Assembly: GCA_028282745.1 (NCBI GenBank)
Contig: JANQHJ010000114.1
Coordinates: forward strand, 1 to 64,000
Length of the DNA stretch: 64,000 nucleotides
Source of the DNA: Sedimentisphaerales bacterium
Lineage (GTDB): Bacteria; Planctomycetota; Phycisphaerae; Sedimentisphaerales; Anaerobacaceae
Direction: 5' to 3'
In this document: piece by piece, positions 13,247 through 39,590 of the stretch
How the letters are laid out: every line of letters starts with the position of its first letter
Position numbering within the stretch: position 1 is the stretch's first letter
The notes under the pieces: generated by a model
Told to the model about the DNA's origin: nothing
The model's database searches: none
Seen by the model: only the letters and a program-made list of their open reading frames with translations
Program-made: the position numbers and the translations under genes

Positions 13247-14077
13247 TCATTCCATCCGTCTCCTCCTGAGAAGCCCGAATCCGCCCAGCCCCAGCATCAC
13301 TAAAGTGCAAGGCTCAGGAACACAGGTGGTTGCGAAATCATACAAATCAGCGATTTCCTGCTCACTTAAAACGCTGTCATAAATAACTACTTCATCCATA
13401 CAGCCGGAGAAAAATCCGGTCAATGGAGTGACCTTACCATCATCGCTTAGCCATGTGTTTGCACCTAAAGCTATCGGCTCGGTATTGTTTTCGATGCCGC
13501 CGGTATAGTCGTTGGTATCTACGATACCGTCATTGATATAAAGCTCCATTCCGCCTGAGCCGAATGTCAGTGTGACTAAGTACCATGTATCAAGTACAAT
13601 TGGAGTGCTGTTTACTACATAGTAATTATCAGCATCGCTTTGCAATCTAACAGAGAGCTGCTGTGTAGCCGCATTTGTCATAAAGGTCAAATGTCCACCA
13701 TCGTCGAAATTCTTAGAGTCTTTAGAAAAGATAGCCGAATCAGTAATCGTATTCAGGTCCTTGAACCAGAACTGGACAGTCCCTTCATCGAGCTCATAGG
13801 CGTCGCTATGATCTATCTCTACATAAGCATTGATAAAGCAAGCTGCTTTATTATCATTACACTTCAATGACAATGCGCCTTCCTGACCGAGTGTAACATT
13901 ATTATAGGTGCCGTCCTGAACACCTTTTTCATCGCTGGCAACATTACCGCTTGTCTCATCGAGCCGCCAATAACTCACCGGCCCAAGAGCGTTGACCATG
14001 TCCACATAGTTAGCTGAACTAACTGCTATCATTGTTATAATGCAGATTAAAACCGTTATTACATTTCGAGCTTTCAT
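13247..14077 (-). CDS. PEP-CTERM protein with LamG/concanavalin-like domain
   Basis: A 276-aa exported protein. It has a signal peptide (about 1-22) and a LamG-like jelly-roll domain (about 28-245; typical phrases LGPVSYWRLDE and GCMDEVVIYDSVLSEQEI). The end is a PEP-CTERM tail: VPEP, a hydrophobic LVMLGLGGFGLL segment and RRRR. The tail is the recognition signal for an exosortase, which in related bacteria links proteins to exopolysaccharide-associated surfaces. AAAGGGA lies 8 bases before the ATG. It is the last of four consecutive PEP-CTERM genes. No exosortase gene is in the window. Confidence 0.9.
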   Translation of the reverse strand: MKARNVITVLICIITMIAVSSANYVDMVNALGPVSYWRLDETSGNVASDEKGVQDGTYNNVTLGQEGALSLKCNDNKAACFINAYVEIDHSDAYELDEGTVQFWFKDLNTITDSAIFSKDSKNFDDGGHLTFMTNAATQQLSVRLQSDADNYYVVNSTPIVLDTWYLVTLTFGSGGMELYINDGIVDTNDYTGGIENNTEPIALGANTWLSDDGKVTPLTGFFSGCMDEVVIYDSVLSEQEIADLYDFATTCVPEPCTLVMLGLGGFGLLRRRRME

Positions 14078-14104: not shown

Positions 14105-14782
14105 TTATTTTTTACGCCTTAATAATGCTAATCCACCAAATCCCAGCATTGCGATTGTTGCAGGTTCCGGTATGACATTCTCACCGTAGTAAACTTCGTC
14201 TATTGCGTAACCATCTACTTTGCAGGGATTGTAATTTCCGTAATTGTCTGAAGATATACGCTCACGGTCCAGGTAAACGGTGTCAAAAGCAATGTCGCTT
14301 ATTATGCCGAAGAATAATTCTGTTCCATTGCTTTGTGGTGCCACTGCGATTGTAAATACCTCGTTATTTTCGTTGCTGAAAACCAGTTGTCCATAACCTT
14401 CGTCACCCCAGTCGATAATATTCAAACCGAATACCTTTATGGATTTATCGAAGGCGAACATTAAATTTCTTGTTATGGTCGCTACGTACTGATCACCGTC
14501 TGTCGCGTGAAGTCCAACATATTCCTCATCAAGAACTGCCAGGTTACGGGTGCCGTCAATAATGCTGAAATCTGCCACATCCACACTCGTTCTGGTGAGA
14601 TCACCTGCGGTCAAAACACTGCCTGCATCATCAGGAATAATTCTTTCGAAGCTTTCCATCAAAACAGGCCCAGCCGCTAAAAGAAAATCGGCTTCATTGT
14701 TATAGCTGATAGCTCCAAAGGATGCTGCTGACATTATAATTGCCGCGATAATGCTGATTGTTACTATTCTCTGTGTTTTCAT
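14105..14782 (-). CDS. PEP-CTERM protein
   Basis: A 225-aa exported protein with a signal peptide (about 1-23) and a beta-rich body that resembles the single-domain 'calcium-binding/choice-of-anchor' type of surface proteins. The C-terminal tail reads IPEP, a hydrophobic AMLGFGGLALL segment and RRKK. It follows the next PEP-CTERM gene by 86 bases. That gap contains an AGAGCT...AGCTCT hairpin and a TCGCTTTAAGCGA hairpin followed by a purine run leading to the ATG. The ligand or role of the body is unknown. Confidence 0.85.
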   Translation of the reverse strand: MKTQRIVTISIIAAIIMSAASFGAISYNNEADFLLAAGPVLMESFERIIPDDAGSVLTAGDLTRTSVDVADFSIIDGTRNLAVLDEEYVGLHATDGDQYVATITRNLMFAFDKSIKVFGLNIIDWGDEGYGQLVFSNENNEVFTIAVAPQSNGTELFFGIISDIAFDTVYLDRERISSDNYGNYNPCKVDGYAIDEVYYGENVIPEPATIAMLGFGGLALLRRKK

Positions 14783-14868: not shown

Positions 14869-15546
14869 TTAACTGCGCTTCCTGCGAGCTAAGAACATTC
14901 CACCAAGTCCGAGCATTGCTATTGTTGCAGGCTCAGGTACACACCATGTATCTACTGCTAAGGCATCAACATATATGTTGCCGCTGATGATAAATTTCTC
15001 CCATTCCGGGTTAGACGGATAACGCCATACATAAGTACTTTTCATCCAGCCGCAGCCTAATTGAACCGGGTCACCAAGAAGTCGAGGCGGGTAATTATGA
15101 GCAGGCCTGGGCTCCAAACATTCAAAGATTGGAACATCATCACAATCCTGTGGTTTCCATATAAGCGAAACATGCATAAGCTTCCAATCATTTGGACGAT
15201 CAAAGTTATCAACTAAAACTTCGATCTCACCGGACAATGCCCATACGCCCCTTCTACGGCTGTCATCGGCCTCCATAGTTTCGATCCAATGACTGCTGAC
15301 CTCTACTACCTTGGTATCAGGCAAATAACCAAGTGAACCAGGCTGCGGTGAGCTGGGGCTAACAGGGCCATCGGGTGCAATATTAAATCGCTGGTCTGTG
15401 TTGAACAGCCAGAATTGCGATGTTGTGCCATCTTGGCCGCGCCAATCTGGCCCACTACTGGTAATATCACTTATTTCTGTAGCGGATGCCCCAGCCGTTA
15501 ATACCAGTGCAACAATGATTGTTAGCATGATTCTTTTCTTTTTCAT
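14869..15546 (-). CDS. PEP-CTERM protein
   Basis: About 225 aa from the ATG at 15546 (MKKKRIMLT); a longer frame to 15585 exists, but the MKKKR start gives a proper signal peptide and has AAAGG just upstream. The body is beta-rich with many Pro, Trp and acidic residues and no domain I can name. The tail reads VPEP, a hydrophobic AMLGLGGMFLA segment and RRKRS. It is transcribed with its PEP-CTERM neighbours. Surface location is inferred from the tail. Confidence 0.85.
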   Translation of the reverse strand: MKKKRIMLTIIVALVLTAGASATEISDITSSGPDWRGQDGTTSQFWLFNTDQRFNIAPDGPVSPSSPQPGSLGYLPDTKVVEVSSHWIETMEADDSRRRGVWALSGEIEVLVDNFDRPNDWKLMHVSLIWKPQDCDDVPIFECLEPRPAHNYPPRLLGDPVQLGCGWMKSTYVWRYPSNPEWEKFIISGNIYVDALAVDTWCVPEPATIAMLGLGGMFLARRKRS

Positions 15547-15595
15547 TTCCTTTTCCCTTTCTGCTTTAGTATTGAGTTTCTCCATTATTATTTAT

Positions 15596-16432
15596 TTATG
15601 GTCGATTGCGTTTACGTCGTAACACTGACAGTGCTCCTACGCCAAACAATGTCATTGTCATTGGTTCCGGGACAACTCCTCCCGAAGGTGATCCGAGCCC
15701 CAGGATGCTGCCTTCGTAATCATCTATGAAGGTAAATGTTACGTCTTCTGCCGTCAGATCAATGTTGATCTCGTACAACTTCCCGATATGGGTTTTAAGA
15801 TCATTGCTTACGCCGAAAAGCTTACCGGCCTCTTCGTCGTACCAGATATCCGTAATTCTTTTCTCACTGGCAGAATCGAGATGCGTAGCTGCTCCGGTAT
15901 TAGGATCGATAAAATAAATCCTCGTACCGAACGATGTCTTGGTCATGGCGACCAGTTTATCTAATGATGCGTCATAATCTAACGCCCATGCCGCTCCATA
16001 AGCTCCCATCGCGCCGATATAAGTTGGTGTTCCGTTAGTTGTGTTGATTGTGTAAAGCCCGACATAGTCAGAGCCATAAAGAATATCGTTCTCTTCATCA
16101 TAAGCTAATGCACAGATATATTTGTTCCCGTAACTGCCGACTTCTGTTACTTCCAGGGTGCTGGCATTGATCCGGTACAATGATCCCCCCTTACCGGTTG
16201 CATAGAATGAATCTTGGTGTTCGCTGCCTGCGTCTGTCGCTCCCCACCAGTCTTGGTTCGTTGTCCCAAGAAGAGTTGTTTGTCCCGAATTGAAATCTAC
16301 CTGGTAAATTCCATTATAATTACCGGTTCCGACTCCATAGGCTACTGATGCACAAGCACTAACAGGTATTGATACTATTATGACCAGTAGTATCAATAAA
16401 AATGATAGTTTGGCTGCTCTCTTTTGCTTCAT
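15596..16432 (-). CDS. PEP-CTERM protein with beta-propeller-like body
   Basis: About 278 aa from the ATG at 16432 (MKQKRAAK), preceded by GGAGG at a spacing of about 9 bases; the frame extends to 16447 but that start overlaps the ribosome site. It has a signal peptide, then a body made of repeated short blades with Tyr/Gly and DEENDILYG-type phrases, like YVTN/SMP-30 beta-propellers. The tail reads VPEP, a hydrophobic TLFGVGALSVL segment and RRKRNRP. It is the first PEP-CTERM gene on this strand, directly downstream of a solitary copy of the hairpin unit at 16485-16640. Confidence 0.85.
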   Translation of the reverse strand: MKQKRAAKLSFLLILLVIIVSIPVSACASVAYGVGTGNYNGIYQVDFNSGQTTLLGTTNQDWWGATDAGSEHQDSFYATGKGGSLYRINASTLEVTEVGSYGNKYICALAYDEENDILYGSDYVGLYTINTTNGTPTYIGAMGAYGAAWALDYDASLDKLVAMTKTSFGTRIYFIDPNTGAATHLDSASEKRITDIWYDEEAGKLFGVSNDLKTHIGKLYEINIDLTAEDVTFTFIDDYEGSILGLGSPSGGVVPEPMTMTLFGVGALSVLRRKRNRP

Positions 16433-16484
16433 GAATACTTCCTCCATACTTGTATTTCTATTCTTCCTGGTTTCTATTTATTAT

Positions 16485-16640
16485 CACAGCCTGAGCCGTG
16501 CGATTTCTAAATGCTGGGCTGAAGACCTCACTTTAGTTATAATTGGTTCTACGGCCTCGAACCCAGCTTGGGGGAGAAAACTCCTCGTGAGCTTATATAA
16601 ACGTGACTATCTGTCACGACCGCTCTCAAATGTAATACTT
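16485..16640. repeat. Solitary copy of the two-hairpin unit (unit A)
   Basis: A separate copy of the array unit lies between the pseudo-receiver gene and the first PEP-CTERM gene. Hairpin 1 is CACAGC/GCCGTG (16485-16490 with 16495-16500). Hairpin 2 is GCTGGG/CCCAGC (16513-16518 with 16562-16567). Then come GGGGAG/CTCCTC (about 16571-16586) and a perfect CGTGAC/GTCACG hairpin (16602-16607 with 16613-16618). The tail after hairpin 2 is nearly identical to that of the last array unit (17794-17818). Strand of function is unknown. Confidence 0.7.
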
Positions 16641-16674
16641 TTTAAAGAACCAAAATTTATATTCAAAAATCTGC

Positions 16675-17076
16675 TTATGATTTAAATTTGTATCTCGCAC
16701 CGACACGAACAGGCGCTTCTAATCCCAGTATTCCACATACCGTATTGATCAACAGCTCACCGCCGCAATCTTCGGTCAGCACTGCCGTTGCCCCTGTACT
16801 GCGGGCCAGGATCTCTTGCTCCGAATTGCCCGGATCAATTAAAACGATAGTGCTCAGATCAGGCTTGACCATCCGTAGCCGTCTTTGAAAAAGACCATCA
16901 CGCATATCGTCAAGCTGCCATTTGCTAAGGACTACCTCAAACCTCTCATCCCGCAAAAACCGAACAGCCTCGATCGCATTTTCGGCCTCTATCAAACGAA
17001 TTGGCAGTTCTCTAAGGCTTCCGACATATTCTTCAAGCCCAACCGCCAACATATTTGCCTGTATCAAAATTTTCAT
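16675..17076 (-). CDS. Pseudo-receiver (response-regulator-like) protein
   Basis: About 133 aa from the ATG at 17076 (MKILIQANM), with GGAG about 9 bases upstream. A longer frame reaches 17151 but would run into the hairpin array. The order of strands and helices fits a CheY-like receiver: KILIQAN, IRLIEAENAIEAVRFL, FEVVLSKWQLDDM, STIVLID, GATAVLTED. The acidic pair after strand 1 is missing (QAN), and the usual phospho-Asp at the end of strand 3 is Ser/Lys. It is therefore probably not phosphorylated in the normal way. It stands alone, with no output domain, between the array and the PEP-CTERM genes. Confidence 0.6.
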   Translation of the reverse strand: MKILIQANMLAVGLEEYVGSLRELPIRLIEAENAIEAVRFLRDERFEVVLSKWQLDDMRDGLFQRRLRMVKPDLSTIVLIDPGNSEQEILARSTGATAVLTEDCGGELLINTVCGILGLEAPVRVGARYKFKS

Positions 17077-17144
17077 TGTTAATAACTCCGTATATTGCCG
17101 TGTCCAATTTCCCACAGCCGTTTTTGCGCGTACTATTTCTATAT

Positions 17145-17880
17145 CTATCACGGTTATTCCGTGTCTGTTTCCTGTGCTGGGAAGATTCTTTTTGGGGGCT
17201 GATTCTTGCCCAGCGTTGAAGGTGAAAGAGGGTTTAAGTTTTTAAGTTTTGAGTATTTAAAAGTTTTTGGTTTCTGATTTTCATTTATAATTCTCACAGC
17301 CGAAGCCGTGCCTGCTTTAAGGCTGGGCGGGCGCCGTCAGCATATTGCCGATAAACGCAAGCCCAGCGAAGAAGAACTAATTAATCTATAATTATCATGG
17401 CCTTAACCATGCTTAATTGTACCCGCTGGGCCCGGTCAACATGCGTCGAATCAAACCCAGCGAAGAAGAGGAGAGAGAGAGTTCGTTAAATGCTTTATCT
17501 TGATCACGGATTACTCCGTGCAATTTACCGCTGGGTTAGCCATTACTTGCGTCGAAATTACTAACCCAGCGAAGAAGAGGAGAGTGAGAGTCGTCGTCTC
17601 TGCTAATTTATTCAAAACATGACTATGTCACGATTGAGGTCTGCTGGGCTTGCCATTACTTGCGTCGAAATTACAAACCCAGCGAAGAAGAGGAGGAGAA
17701 AAAATGAGATTCTCTGCCTGTATAATAAACACGGCCTAAACCGTGAAGGCTGCGTGCTGGACTTTCGAGTCAAAACAGACTAAAAAGCCCAGCTTGGGGG
17801 AGAAAACTCCTCGTGAGCATATATGACATCGCGATAATACCATCGCGTTCGCTCTCCAGATAAAGCGACCTGGCTTAAGT
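17145..17880. repeat. Tandem array of two-hairpin units (candidate structured RNA)
   Basis: Six consecutive units, GCTGGG landmarks at 17176, 17322, 17425, 17530, 17643 and 17756 (GCTGGA in the last), spacing 146, 103, 105, 113 and 113 bases. Each has hairpin 1 with changing sequence but kept pairing: CACGG/CCGTG (17149), CACAGC/GCCGTG (17295), CATGG/CCATG (17396), CACGG/CCGTG (17505), TGAC/GTCA (17620), CACGG/CCGTG (17730). Hairpin 2 is GCTGGG...CCCAGC with a stem of 6-11 bp; three loops share TGCGTCGAA. A purine tail follows, GAAGAAGAGGAG in three units. The last unit has a GGGGGAG/CTCCTC tail instead. No long ORF crosses it. Strand, transcription and role are unknown. Confidence 0.75.
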
Positions 17881-18030
17881 AACTTTTATGACAGCCTGAC
17901 GATTTGAGTTTTCTCCCGGCCGTCAGTTTACTCTCGCTGACATCGCTGTTTGGTATTCTAATTTCAAAGAGCCGCTTCTGTTTCTTTTTCTCTTCAAGGC
18001 TTACTGTTATTTGCCTTCGCCTTTATATAA

Positions 18031-18046
18031 AGCGAATGCCGTGCCA
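18031..18046 (-). promoter_or_regulatory. Candidate sigma-54 promoter
   Basis: The minus strand reads TGGCACGGCATTCGCT, which matches the TGGCACG-N4-TTGCW consensus at all but one position and keeps GG-N10-GC. It points toward the hairpin array, the pseudo-receiver and the PEP-CTERM genes. PEP-CTERM genes in other phyla are often under a sigma-54 system (PrsK/PrsR), which is why I note it. Caution: a GCACGGC core also occurs in the hairpin-1 stems of two array units, so this could be a degenerate hairpin. Confidence 0.35.
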
Positions 18047-18216
18047 AACTCATGCCGGAAAAAATAAAAACCTTATCTCTTTATACTGCAAGTAGTTACG
18101 TCTTGCAATTTTTGTGTCACTTTCTCTTTGTTGAAAATGCAAAATCGACCGATCAGGCCGCTGATTTTGGAGTTTTATGTTTGTAAGATATGCTTTTTGC
18201 GCCGGTTGAATTCAAA

Positions 18217-18254
18217 CCGACCATTTTCGTCGCCACCGACCATTCACGTCGCAT
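18217..18254. repeat. Two 19-bp direct repeats
   Basis: CCGACCATTTTCGTCGCCA (18217-18235) is followed directly by CCGACCATTCACGTCGCAT (18236-18254), a tandem pair differing at four positions. It lies just past the stop of the FHA-GAF gene. Tandem spacing of about two helical turns is typical of operator half-sites, but no regulator is known. Confidence 0.5.
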
Positions 18255-37747: not shown

Positions 37748-37751
37748 GCTT

Positions 37752-38567
37752 TTAGTAATCTTTCAAGCTTGCCATCCACGTTGGCCATTTAGCATTTGGA
37801 TTTTCACTGGTCCATGTGCCATTGATATTAAAAGAACTATACCATTTAAATCTCCAGAGTTCCTTTAGCCCCACTTTTCTTGCCGAGCCGTCCATGAAAA
37901 CACAATTTTCATATCCACGATGCCTGTCCTGACATACCCGTTTCATTTGAGATATCTTGCTATTGCCATCCTCCCTCCAGGTTTCATCTACCGGATCAGG
38001 TGGTGGGCTACCCGGTTCAGGCCAGGCATCTATCCATTGAGCGTCAAGCATAAATGGTACCCGGTCGGCTTGTTTAATTTTTGTAACTCTACGCCAAAAA
38101 TATGACGGGTCCCTGCCCATATTTTTGTTTTTCCGAGGATTTAGAATCCATCCGTTTATACCATAGCTTCCGTAATCTTCAGTTTCAAAGAGAGGTTTGT
38201 CGTATCCCCATGCCCTGAAAGGAAGTCGCGCGTCGGTGGGATTCCCATCGATGTCATTTTCAGTTTTCGTGGCTGTCGGACAGCAGCGTATTTTGTCAAT
38301 ATCATCATAGTATTTACGAAGAGCGCTCACCCACCAGTTGCTTTTAATATTCGGATTCTCATAGTTGAAGCCTTCCCAGATGCTATCGTTATTATTGGCA
38401 GCATAAGTCTGGGCACAGAGGTACCATTGACGTAGATTGGAGTTACATATTACAGTCCGGGCATGACTTTTTGCGATGTTCAATACCGGAACAAGAATAG
38501 ACATTAATAAAGCGATTACTGCGATAACTACAAGAAGTTCAATTAGTGTAAATCCGTTTTTCTTCAT
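37752..38567 (-). CDS. H-X9-DG type II pseudopilin-like protein
   Basis: About 271 aa from the ATG at 38567 (MKKNGFTL), with GGGAG 6 bases upstream. The N-terminus is a class III prepilin leader: MKKNG cut before FTLIELL, with Glu at +5, followed by a long hydrophobic helix. A C-terminal HRGYENCVFMDG gives the H-X9-DG signature of the planctomycete/verrucomicrobial pseudopilin family. It is probably processed by a prepilin peptidase and exported by a type II-like pathway. A second, similar gene lies just upstream. Confidence 0.88.
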   Translation of the reverse strand: MKKNGFTLIELLVVIAVIALLMSILVPVLNIAKSHARTVICNSNLRQWYLCAQTYAANNNDSIWEGFNYENPNIKSNWWVSALRKYYDDIDKIRCCPTATKTENDIDGNPTDARLPFRAWGYDKPLFETEDYGSYGINGWILNPRKNKNMGRDPSYFWRRVTKIKQADRVPFMLDAQWIDAWPEPGSPPPDPVDETWREDGNSKISQMKRVCQDRHRGYENCVFMDGSARKVGLKELWRFKWYSSFNINGTWTSENPNAKWPTWMASLKDY

Positions 38568-38774
38568 AACATGCTCCCGTAAACATTCCCGCTTGATGAA
38601 AGATATATTTATAATGCCCAATATTCTTCCTTTATGAATATTATATAGTATAACTTGGATAAATTCAATTGTAATCATGTAAGTCGTTCCCTGTAAAGGG
38701 GATATGTGTTGAGGTGTGTTTGGTGGCAGGGGGTTTTCTAATTAGAGATTGTTTTTGATAAAAATGTATGGTTT

Positions 38775-39590
38775 TTAGTAATCTTTAAAACCTGCCATCC
38801 AATCCCGCCAGTTGGGGGTTTGACCATTGGCAGTCGTCCATTTTCCGTTGGTATCGAAAGACTTGTGCCATTTAAGTTTCCACAATTCTTTTAGGCCGAC
38901 CTTTCTGGAAGAACCATCCATGAATGAACTATCCATTGTTCCTCTATGTCTGTTCTGGCATACGCGCAGCATTTGATCATCAGGAACGTCTTTACGATTT
39001 GCTTCTTCATTTTCTTCATTTGGTGGTCTGCTATCGGGTTCGGGCCAGGCATCGATCCACTGCGCGTCGAGCATGAGCGGTACTTTATCGGCTTGTGATA
39101 TACTTGCGAGACTCCTCCAGTATTTTGAACTATCCCTTACTTTATTCTCCACCGCGTCAAGCAGCCATCCGTTAATACCATAACTGCCGTAATCGTCATT
39201 ACCGAAGAAGTCCGTTTCATAGCCCCATGCCCGGAAAGGCAAAACTCCGGCTCCGTGTATACCATTCTCGTCCCAGTGCCGCTTTTTTGCTTCCGGACAG
39301 CAGCGTATCTCATCTATATCGTCATAATAGTTACGAAGTGCTTTCATCCACCAATTATTTGCGTTAGGATCATCCTCTTTGAAGGCCCATCCCTGCCAGA
39401 TCCTTTGATTGTTATCTGCAGCGTAAGCTTGTGTGCACATAAACCATTGACGCAGATTTGAGATGCAGATAGTTTGTTTGGTCTTCTTTTTTGCTATATT
39501 CAGTGTTGGTACTAATATCGACATCAGCAGTGCGATAACGGAGATGACCACCAGTATCTCAACTAATGTAAAGGCTGTTCTTTTCTGCAT
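38775..39590 (-). CDS. H-X9-DG type II pseudopilin-like protein (paralogue)
   Basis: About 271 aa from the ATG at 39590 (MQKRTAFTL) with AGGCGG just upstream. It shares the length, the hydrophobic leader helix, the H-X9-DG motif (HRGTMDSSFMDG) and most internal phrases (LRQW, IDAWPEP, YGSYGINGW) with its downstream neighbour. It is clearly a tandem duplicate. At the cleavage site the residue before FTL is Ala rather than Gly, an uncommon variant. The gap between the copies is 207 bases with its own AT-rich leader. Confidence 0.88.
   Translation of the reverse strand: MQKRTAFTLVEILVVISVIALLMSILVPTLNIAKKKTKQTICISNLRQWFMCTQAYAADNNQRIWQGWAFKEDDPNANNWWMKALRNYYDDIDEIRCCPEAKKRHWDENGIHGAGVLPFRAWGYETDFFGNDDYGSYGINGWLLDAVENKVRDSSKYWRSLASISQADKVPLMLDAQWIDAWPEPDSRPPNEENEEANRKDVPDDQMLRVCQNRHRGTMDSSFMDGSSRKVGLKELWKLKWHKSFDTNGKWTTANGQTPNWRDWMAGFKDY

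Follow-up and report, generated by a model that had tools for sequence, protein, structure and literature searches.

The window, by which we mean the whole 64,000-nt stretch of DNA analyzed, carries on its minus strand between positions 18046 and 16470 an ordered series of elements: a sigma-54 promoter, a boxA-like element, a head module, six tandem units, a pseudo-receiver gene, then a second boxA, head and seventh unit, leading into PEP-CTERM genes. The six tandem units occupy 17137-17807 and all were found by the covariance model R1 (E-values of 5.5e-17 to 1.3e-07), confirming the six two-hairpin units described in an initial annotation of this DNA. In the order of the transcript, unit 1 is joined to the head and lies at 17718..17807 (41.1 bits, E = 1.3e-07), unit 2 at 17606..17697 (70 bits), unit 3 at 17493..17584 (80.5 bits), unit 4 at 17384..17475 (69.6 bits), unit 5 at 17283..17381 (58.7 bits), and unit 6 at 17137..17228 (57.6 bits), ending about 60 nt 5' of the receiver ATG. 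Hairpin 2 recurs from start to start every 103-114 bases, close to the 103-113 reported before, with one interval of 146. The stand-alone pseudo-receiver gene follows at 16675..17076; its likely start is the ATG at 17076, and a GTG upstream at 17151 is also open. The seventh unit (16472..16581; 30.3 bits, E = 4.8e-05) forms the leader of the first of four PEP-CTERM protein genes, all matching PF07589, at 15596..16447, 14869..15585, 14105..14782 and 13247..14077, the last of which also has a Laminin_G_3 domain (PF13385). Array, pseudo-receiver and PEP-CTERM genes are all on the minus strand, so the array is upstream of these genes and co-directional with them, as had been proposed. The element extends past the interval originally assigned, 17145-17880: up to 18046, with promoter and boxA, and to a second, single-unit leader at 16472-16651. 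The promoter, the boxA, the head at the first unit of each leader and the stand-alone units described below are additions to the earlier description. Elsewhere in the window, repeats about 1.02 kb apart at 37750-39356 (37750/38773 and 38272/39289) suggest that a gene was duplicated in tandem.

Each unit reads, 5' to 3', as a CU run (CUCUCCUCUUCUUC), hairpin 2, an A-rich spacer of about 12 nt, hairpin 1, and the flank AUAANNAUAAA. Hairpin 2 is formed by GCUGGGUUUG and CAAACCCAGC (GCUGGG..CCCAGC) around a variable interior, and hairpin 1 by CACGG..CCGUG around a variable loop. The CU run is 89% pyrimidine and 2% G, with a mean predicted unpaired probability of 0.55. The purine tail noted earlier behind the hairpins is present as a tract, but because the transcribed strand is the minus strand, it is the complement of a pyrimidine run. 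We rejected hairpin 1 as a terminator, since the tails that follow it are 51% A and lack U tracts. In hairpin-2 interiors (alignment A7) we observed RGTGA in 47 of 150 units, where about 6 are expected, and its complement in none; the excess appears higher in distant families (for example CAGTGAT and CGGTGATC), and it is possible that RGTGA is a second recognition loop.

In the first unit of each leader, a head module, GAGAGC-hairpin-GCUCACGAGGAGUUUUCUCCCCC, stands in place of the CU run. This conserved head opens both the six-unit array, at 17796..17856 (GAGAGC, a CGCGAT/ATCGCG hairpin, then GCTCACGAGGAGTTTTCTCCCCC; minus strand), and the seventh unit before the first PEP-CTERM gene, at 16570..16627 (minus strand). 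A search for the head core with the loop left free (GCTCACGAGGAGNNNNCTCC, one mismatch allowed) gave matches in 14 of 60 relatives, in all of which the loop was TTTT. These results come from pattern searches and alignments A3 and A6, as MAFFT misaligned the variable hairpin of the head. The sequence GGGAGAAAACTC at 17906-17917 (minus strand), about 95 nt upstream, is a perfect complement of the head core GAGTTTTCTCCC; we discarded pairing between the two as a general feature, because it is present only in the window and in locus L037.

The GCTGGG/CCCAGC hairpin occurs beyond chance: the pattern GCTGGGN{15,45}CCCAGC was found 11 times in the 2.57-Mb genome, and six of these sites fall within this 1.2-kb stretch; a reversed control gave none. 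Compensated changes in hairpin-1 stems also proved real (CACGG/CCGTG, CATGG/CCATG, CGTGAC/GTCATG). In alignment A4, which holds 27 head-less units from the window and its relatives, 97% of cells were paired and 12 of 16 pairs showed double changes, a result that none of 500 shuffles equaled. Shifting the partner by one column lowered pairing to 37-39%, and unaided RNAalifold recovered the same 16 pairs. Among 150 aligned units, 97.2% of cells were paired and 14 of 16 pairs were doubly changed; this larger alignment was fitted to R1, so A4 is the cleaner test of covariation. The copies are old and diverged rather than recent identical duplications. The genome of the window has one further unit (G000:C24:3508-3603, locus L107), right behind a second activator/pseudo-receiver pair, and the hairpin-2 stem of this unit has an entirely different sequence with pairing kept.

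The initial annotation had left RNA and cruciform DNA side by side as the structure under selection. On the gene-sense strand of the aligned units, G.U pairs outnumber A.C pairs 230 to 18, an excess that is partly built in by model scoring that favors G.U; alignment A4, which was compiled independently of the model from a search permitting G.U pairs, leaned in the same direction. Given this excess and the strand specificity of both the CU run and the A-rich tail, the units are better read as RNA transcribed with the genes than as cruciform DNA. An RNA from the plus strand was ruled out by the direction of the genes, by the wobble asymmetry, and by minus-strand folds that are more stable than plus-strand folds in six of seven units. 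We conclude that the units are almost certainly a structured RNA family.

Across the window and related loci, R1 identified about 160 units. It matched 37 of the family's 89 genomes and 51 of the 161 in the order, these lying in families f1, f2, f6 and f7. Samples of the class and the phylum gave matches in 24 of 397 and 3 of 392 genomes, respectively, all from the same order and none from outside it. When about 85,000 species of bacteria and archaea were searched for the exact head pattern, 14 stretches were returned, each labeled Phycisphaerae, Phycisphaerales, Sedimentisphaerales or Planctomycetota/planctomycete. Scanning the window against Rfam 15 with cmscan gave no match at the gathering threshold, in line with the earlier statement that c-di-GMP-I, TPP, fluoride and glycine riboswitches do not fit, and in L030, L037 and L040, searched up to E = 5, tRNAs alone reached threshold. 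The open-licence literature on PEP-CTERM with riboswitch and on planctomycete RNA motifs yielded no description of these units. The unit family is a previously uncatalogued structured RNA, so far found only in one planctomycete order. The idea of a new RNA family is thus supported by homologues, by covariation and by recurrence near PEP-CTERM genes (see below).

The promoter, a -24/-12 sequence TGGCACGGCATTCGCT at 18031..18046 on the minus strand, is the only site of such score on either strand of the window. Relative to TGGCAC-N5-TTGCW it keeps the invariant GG and GC and has TCGC for TTGC. In 52 loci, the 800-nt region preceding the first unit was scanned for sigma-54 sites scoring at least 19. 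Sense sites, with TTGC or TCGC, were present at 33 loci, compared with a background of 1.1% of 800-nt tiles, and antisense sites at none of the 52; about a third of the loci have no recognizable site. The distance from site to first unit is about 50-240 nt if the array comes first and about 450-780 nt if the receiver gene intervenes. We conclude that the array very probably lies in the minus-strand leader of a sigma-54 transcript, and it is well supported that the array is a long untranslated part of that transcript. Upstream of the promoter, two intergenic copies of an 18-base direct repeat (ACCGACCATTNNCGTCGC), 19 bases apart at 18216-18252, could be activator-binding sites.

Between promoter and head, at 17961..17973 on the minus strand, lies the boxA-like element GGCTCTTTGAAAT, one of three boxA-like matches in the window. 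The consensus of a NusB/S10 boxA, in sense and early in the transcript, is YGYTCTTTRANA; across loci we used the pattern G[CT]TCTTT[AG]A[ACT]A. Sense matches occurred at 28 of 52 loci against a background of 0.4%, antisense matches at 0 of 52, and nearly half of the loci have no match. In two members of the family, the 16S rRNA leaders carry a boxA that this element resembles, TGCTCTTTGACAAGT at -216 (G030) and AGCTCTTTGACAAGT at -206 (G015). A second element in the window, GGTTCTTTAAAAA at 16639..16651 (minus strand), precedes the single-unit leader and includes the 11-mer GTTCTTTAAAA, which is identical to boxA in the CRISPR array of Legionella Lens (PMC7862264). Elements of this kind are known ahead of long non-coding RNAs, and there boxA raises read-through of the array (PMC7862264). 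We regard the boxA as likely to be functional as a NusB/S10 antitermination site.

A boxA in a non-coding leader is present in eight loci (the window, L033, L036, L037, L042, L093, L101 and L111). The remaining copies, in loci with the receiver gene ahead of the array, sit within that gene, where the same bases also encode Arg-Ser-Leu-Lys. In the 38 receiver genes, the Ser codon of this boxA (TCT in 27 of 31) was the most synonymously constrained position, and nearby Lys (AAA in 29 of 29) and Asn (AAT in 20 of 20) codons ranked third and fourth. Most receiver-gene copies also encode RSLK as a conserved protein motif. The codon constraint suggests that the boxA in the receiver gene is an antitermination signal embedded in an open reading frame. 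The boxA-like CGYTCTTTRAAAAAT lies in the receiver codons R-S-L-K-N of L090, L098, L106, L030, L041 and others.

The receiver itself lacks the acidic pair and has K or R at the position of the phospho-Asp (alignment A8); its fold family is supported by relatives that match PF00072. Just upstream of the pseudo-receiver, many relatives encode a sigma-54 activator (PF00158 and HTH_8) that has no receiver domain; in the window it is not adjacent. The activator of L041 scored 275.4 bits against PrsR (TIGR02915), over the AAA+ and Fis part only and below the full-length threshold of 502.6. Units were present in all 28 family genomes with the pseudo-receiver, compared with 9 of the 61 others. The array locus often shows conserved synteny with gluconeogenesis genes, with a GTP-dependent PEP carboxykinase upstream and/or a pyruvate phosphate dikinase-like protein of about 900 aa downstream (L031, L034, L036, L039, L041, L042, L090, L092, L101 and L109).

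Among 65 unit clusters, the next ORF was on the same strand in 48, and 22 of these 48 encoded PEP-CTERM proteins, compared with 10.5% of ORFs in these loci, bearing out the recurrence near such genes that had been anticipated. The next ORF was on the opposite strand in 14 clusters, and none of these 14 was PEP-CTERM. Units occur in three settings. In setting a, single units end 5-20 nt 5' of the ATG of individual PEP-CTERM genes (L094 and L096); setting b comprises tandem arrays of 2-7 units; and in setting c, a single unit runs directly into a strong intrinsic terminator and has no same-strand gene behind it. The setting c units of L103 and L104 adjoin hybrid-kinase/response-regulator operons. 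Other units precede a hemerythrin/hybrid-kinase operon (L099 and L091), and two units are flanked by a NarL-type response regulator and csrA, in two genomes of one genus (L095 and L119). We consider it reasonably likely that units cis-regulate PEP-CTERM genes. Because some arrays end without a PEP-CTERM gene nearby, however, such control is not their whole role.

How the units might act can be explained in several ways. One is that they are a multicopy antisense RNA whose CU run (CUCCUCUUC, like the 16S anti-Shine-Dalgarno) pairs with Shine-Dalgarno (SD) sequences, in cis or trans, to prevent translation in the manner of the LhrC small RNAs of Listeria, with arrays processed to single small RNAs. 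The composition of the CU run fits, in single-unit leaders it sits 5' of an SD able to pair with it, and in LhrC, as a precedent, CU-rich sites bind the SD without requiring Hfq (PMC4132741). Duplexes between the CU run and start regions were also slightly stronger for PEP-CTERM genes than for others (median -10.9 versus -9.3, p = 0.007), but this difference is confounded by the stronger SDs of these genes (p = 0.025). Moreover, any CU run can pair with any SD, and conserved hairpins and an A-rich tail are left unexplained. Support for the CU run as a targeted anti-SD is weak and confounded by SD strength, and we rate antisense action as a less likely alternative. A Rho-boxA attenuator is about as unlikely, if anything slightly more so. 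Here the G-poor CU and A-rich linkers would be rut sites that end transcription within the untranslated leader unless a boxA complex forms, and the array would gate read-through into the PEP-CTERM operon. The frequency of sense boxA, linkers poor in G and the read-through precedent above all favor it, yet boxA may simply protect the RNA, the strong conservation of hairpin 1 and tail has no place in it, and arrays or single units with no gene behind, such as the clusters facing an opposite-strand gene, are unexplained.

Three further readings are far less probable. A tandem riboswitch for a small molecule would suit the 5' leader position and the tandem two-hairpin unit; it is very unlikely because of the number of copies (up to seven), the stand-alone units with a terminator and no gene, the Rfam searches of the window and three relatives, which returned no riboswitch, and the lack of any invariant loop resembling a ligand pocket. 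A strict CsrA or Hfq sponge is no more credible. It draws on the two units upstream of csrA in two genomes and on CrcZ, an RNA that depends on RpoN and lifts repression by Hfq-Crc (PMC6292655). We rejected a CsrA decoy for its depletion of GGA, found in 82 of 150 units where 114 are expected, and the near-universal presence of CsrA with or without arrays makes its distribution uninformative. An Hfq decoy was rejected because Hfq (PF17209) was detected in none of the 89 family genomes by a search that was positive in five control genomes. That the units act as DNA, either as cruciforms or as tandem enhancers that the sigma-54 activator would bind, is the most improbable reading of all. The sigma-54 regulon context and the inverted repeats are compatible with it, but the units are downstream of the promoter, stems such as that at G000:C24 have been replaced wholesale with pairing kept, the CU run and tails are strand-specific, and the wobble excess, partly inherent in model scoring, is on one strand. 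Position and stem replacement also led us to reject the units as enhancers of the sigma-54 activator.

The best overall explanation, which we favor tentatively from sequence analysis, is that the unit is a module in mRNA leaders that binds a factor acting in trans, with multi-copy and stand-alone copies as decoys. A module for a trans-acting factor is the best reading because it fits settings a, b and c together, whereas a riboswitch covers a but not c and an attenuator covers b but not c. The explanation also draws on the covarying structure with its one-strand wobble, its spread through family and order, the sense-only enrichment of promoter and boxA, the likeness to rRNA boxA, the codon constraint in the receiver gene, and the tie between units and pseudo-receiver; against it weigh the low unpaired probability of the CU run, the arrays lacking a nearby PEP-CTERM gene, the loci with no recognizable sigma-54 site or boxA, and the conserved RSLK motif. 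NusB/S10 at boxA would carry RNA polymerase through the untranslated, G-poor array. The factor, probably an RNA-binding protein other than Hfq and CsrA, would then bind each unit as a module made up of the CU run, the two stiff hairpins and the A-rich tail. In PEP-CTERM leaders the module would govern either the translation of the following gene or the stability of its mRNA, and multi-copy arrays and stand-alone units would titrate the factor; a trans-acting factor with decoy arrays is, on its own, a possibility that we hold with somewhat less than even confidence. Activation of the sigma-54 regulon would both transcribe PEP-CTERM genes and tune their output, and the array RNA probably helps to control the timing of surface-protein production. 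More speculative, and on balance unlikely as a whole, is a boxA-protected sigma-54 tandem RNA recognized by a novel RNA-binding regulator, possibly involving the pseudo-receiver itself, that couples PEP-CTERM transcription to post-transcriptional control, with boxA written into the pseudo-receiver coding sequence.

Structured RNA families that covary strongly, occur in many copies, span an order and are absent from Rfam are uncommon, and among catalogued ones we found none associated with PEP-CTERM genes. Brought together here are sigma-54 enhancer-binding activators, a degenerate receiver, antitermination by boxA beyond rRNA and CRISPR, and the expression of surface proteins, all in bacteria without detectable Hfq. 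It offers a handle on how planctomycetes control large PEP-CTERM repertoires and a case of an antitermination signal apparently embedded in coding sequence.

Several known systems resemble this one in part. CsrB and RsmZ are decoys with repeated binding modules in non-coding RNA, and such modules also occur in mRNA leaders. Likewise, the units here are repeated in non-coding RNA and mRNA leaders, beside two-component regulators and, in one genus, ahead of csrA; unlike those decoys, which repeat GGA in loops, the units are depleted of it. CrcZ and CrcY are under RpoN and an enhancer-binding protein and carry repeated unpaired motifs (PMC6292655); the control and the repeats are alike, whereas here there is no detected Hfq, the units are structured with two hairpins, and Rfam gave no match. 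LhrC1-5 of Listeria also comprises several homologous copies with CU-rich sites and a two-component link, but each copy has its own promoter (PMC4132741), whereas arrays here share one leader and boxA. As in boxA-led rRNA operons and CRISPR arrays (PMC7862264), boxA precedes a long, untranslated, repeated RNA, with an identical 11-mer in the CRISPR case; the differences are a sigma-54 promoter and hairpin modules in place of CRISPR repeats or rRNA. The pan RNA motif also consists of tandem simple hairpins in leaders, taken as suggesting a protein-binding motif (PMC2864571), and differs in structure, genes and organisms. Finally, in the PrsK/PrsR system of proteobacteria, PEP-CTERM genes are controlled by RpoN together with an enhancer-binding protein of the Fis type (PMC9850573), as here, where the activator lacks a receiver domain, the pseudo-receiver is separate, and an RNA array has been added. 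The unit family fails the tested hallmarks of Csr, CrcZ and known riboswitches, and it shares a logic common to several of these systems.
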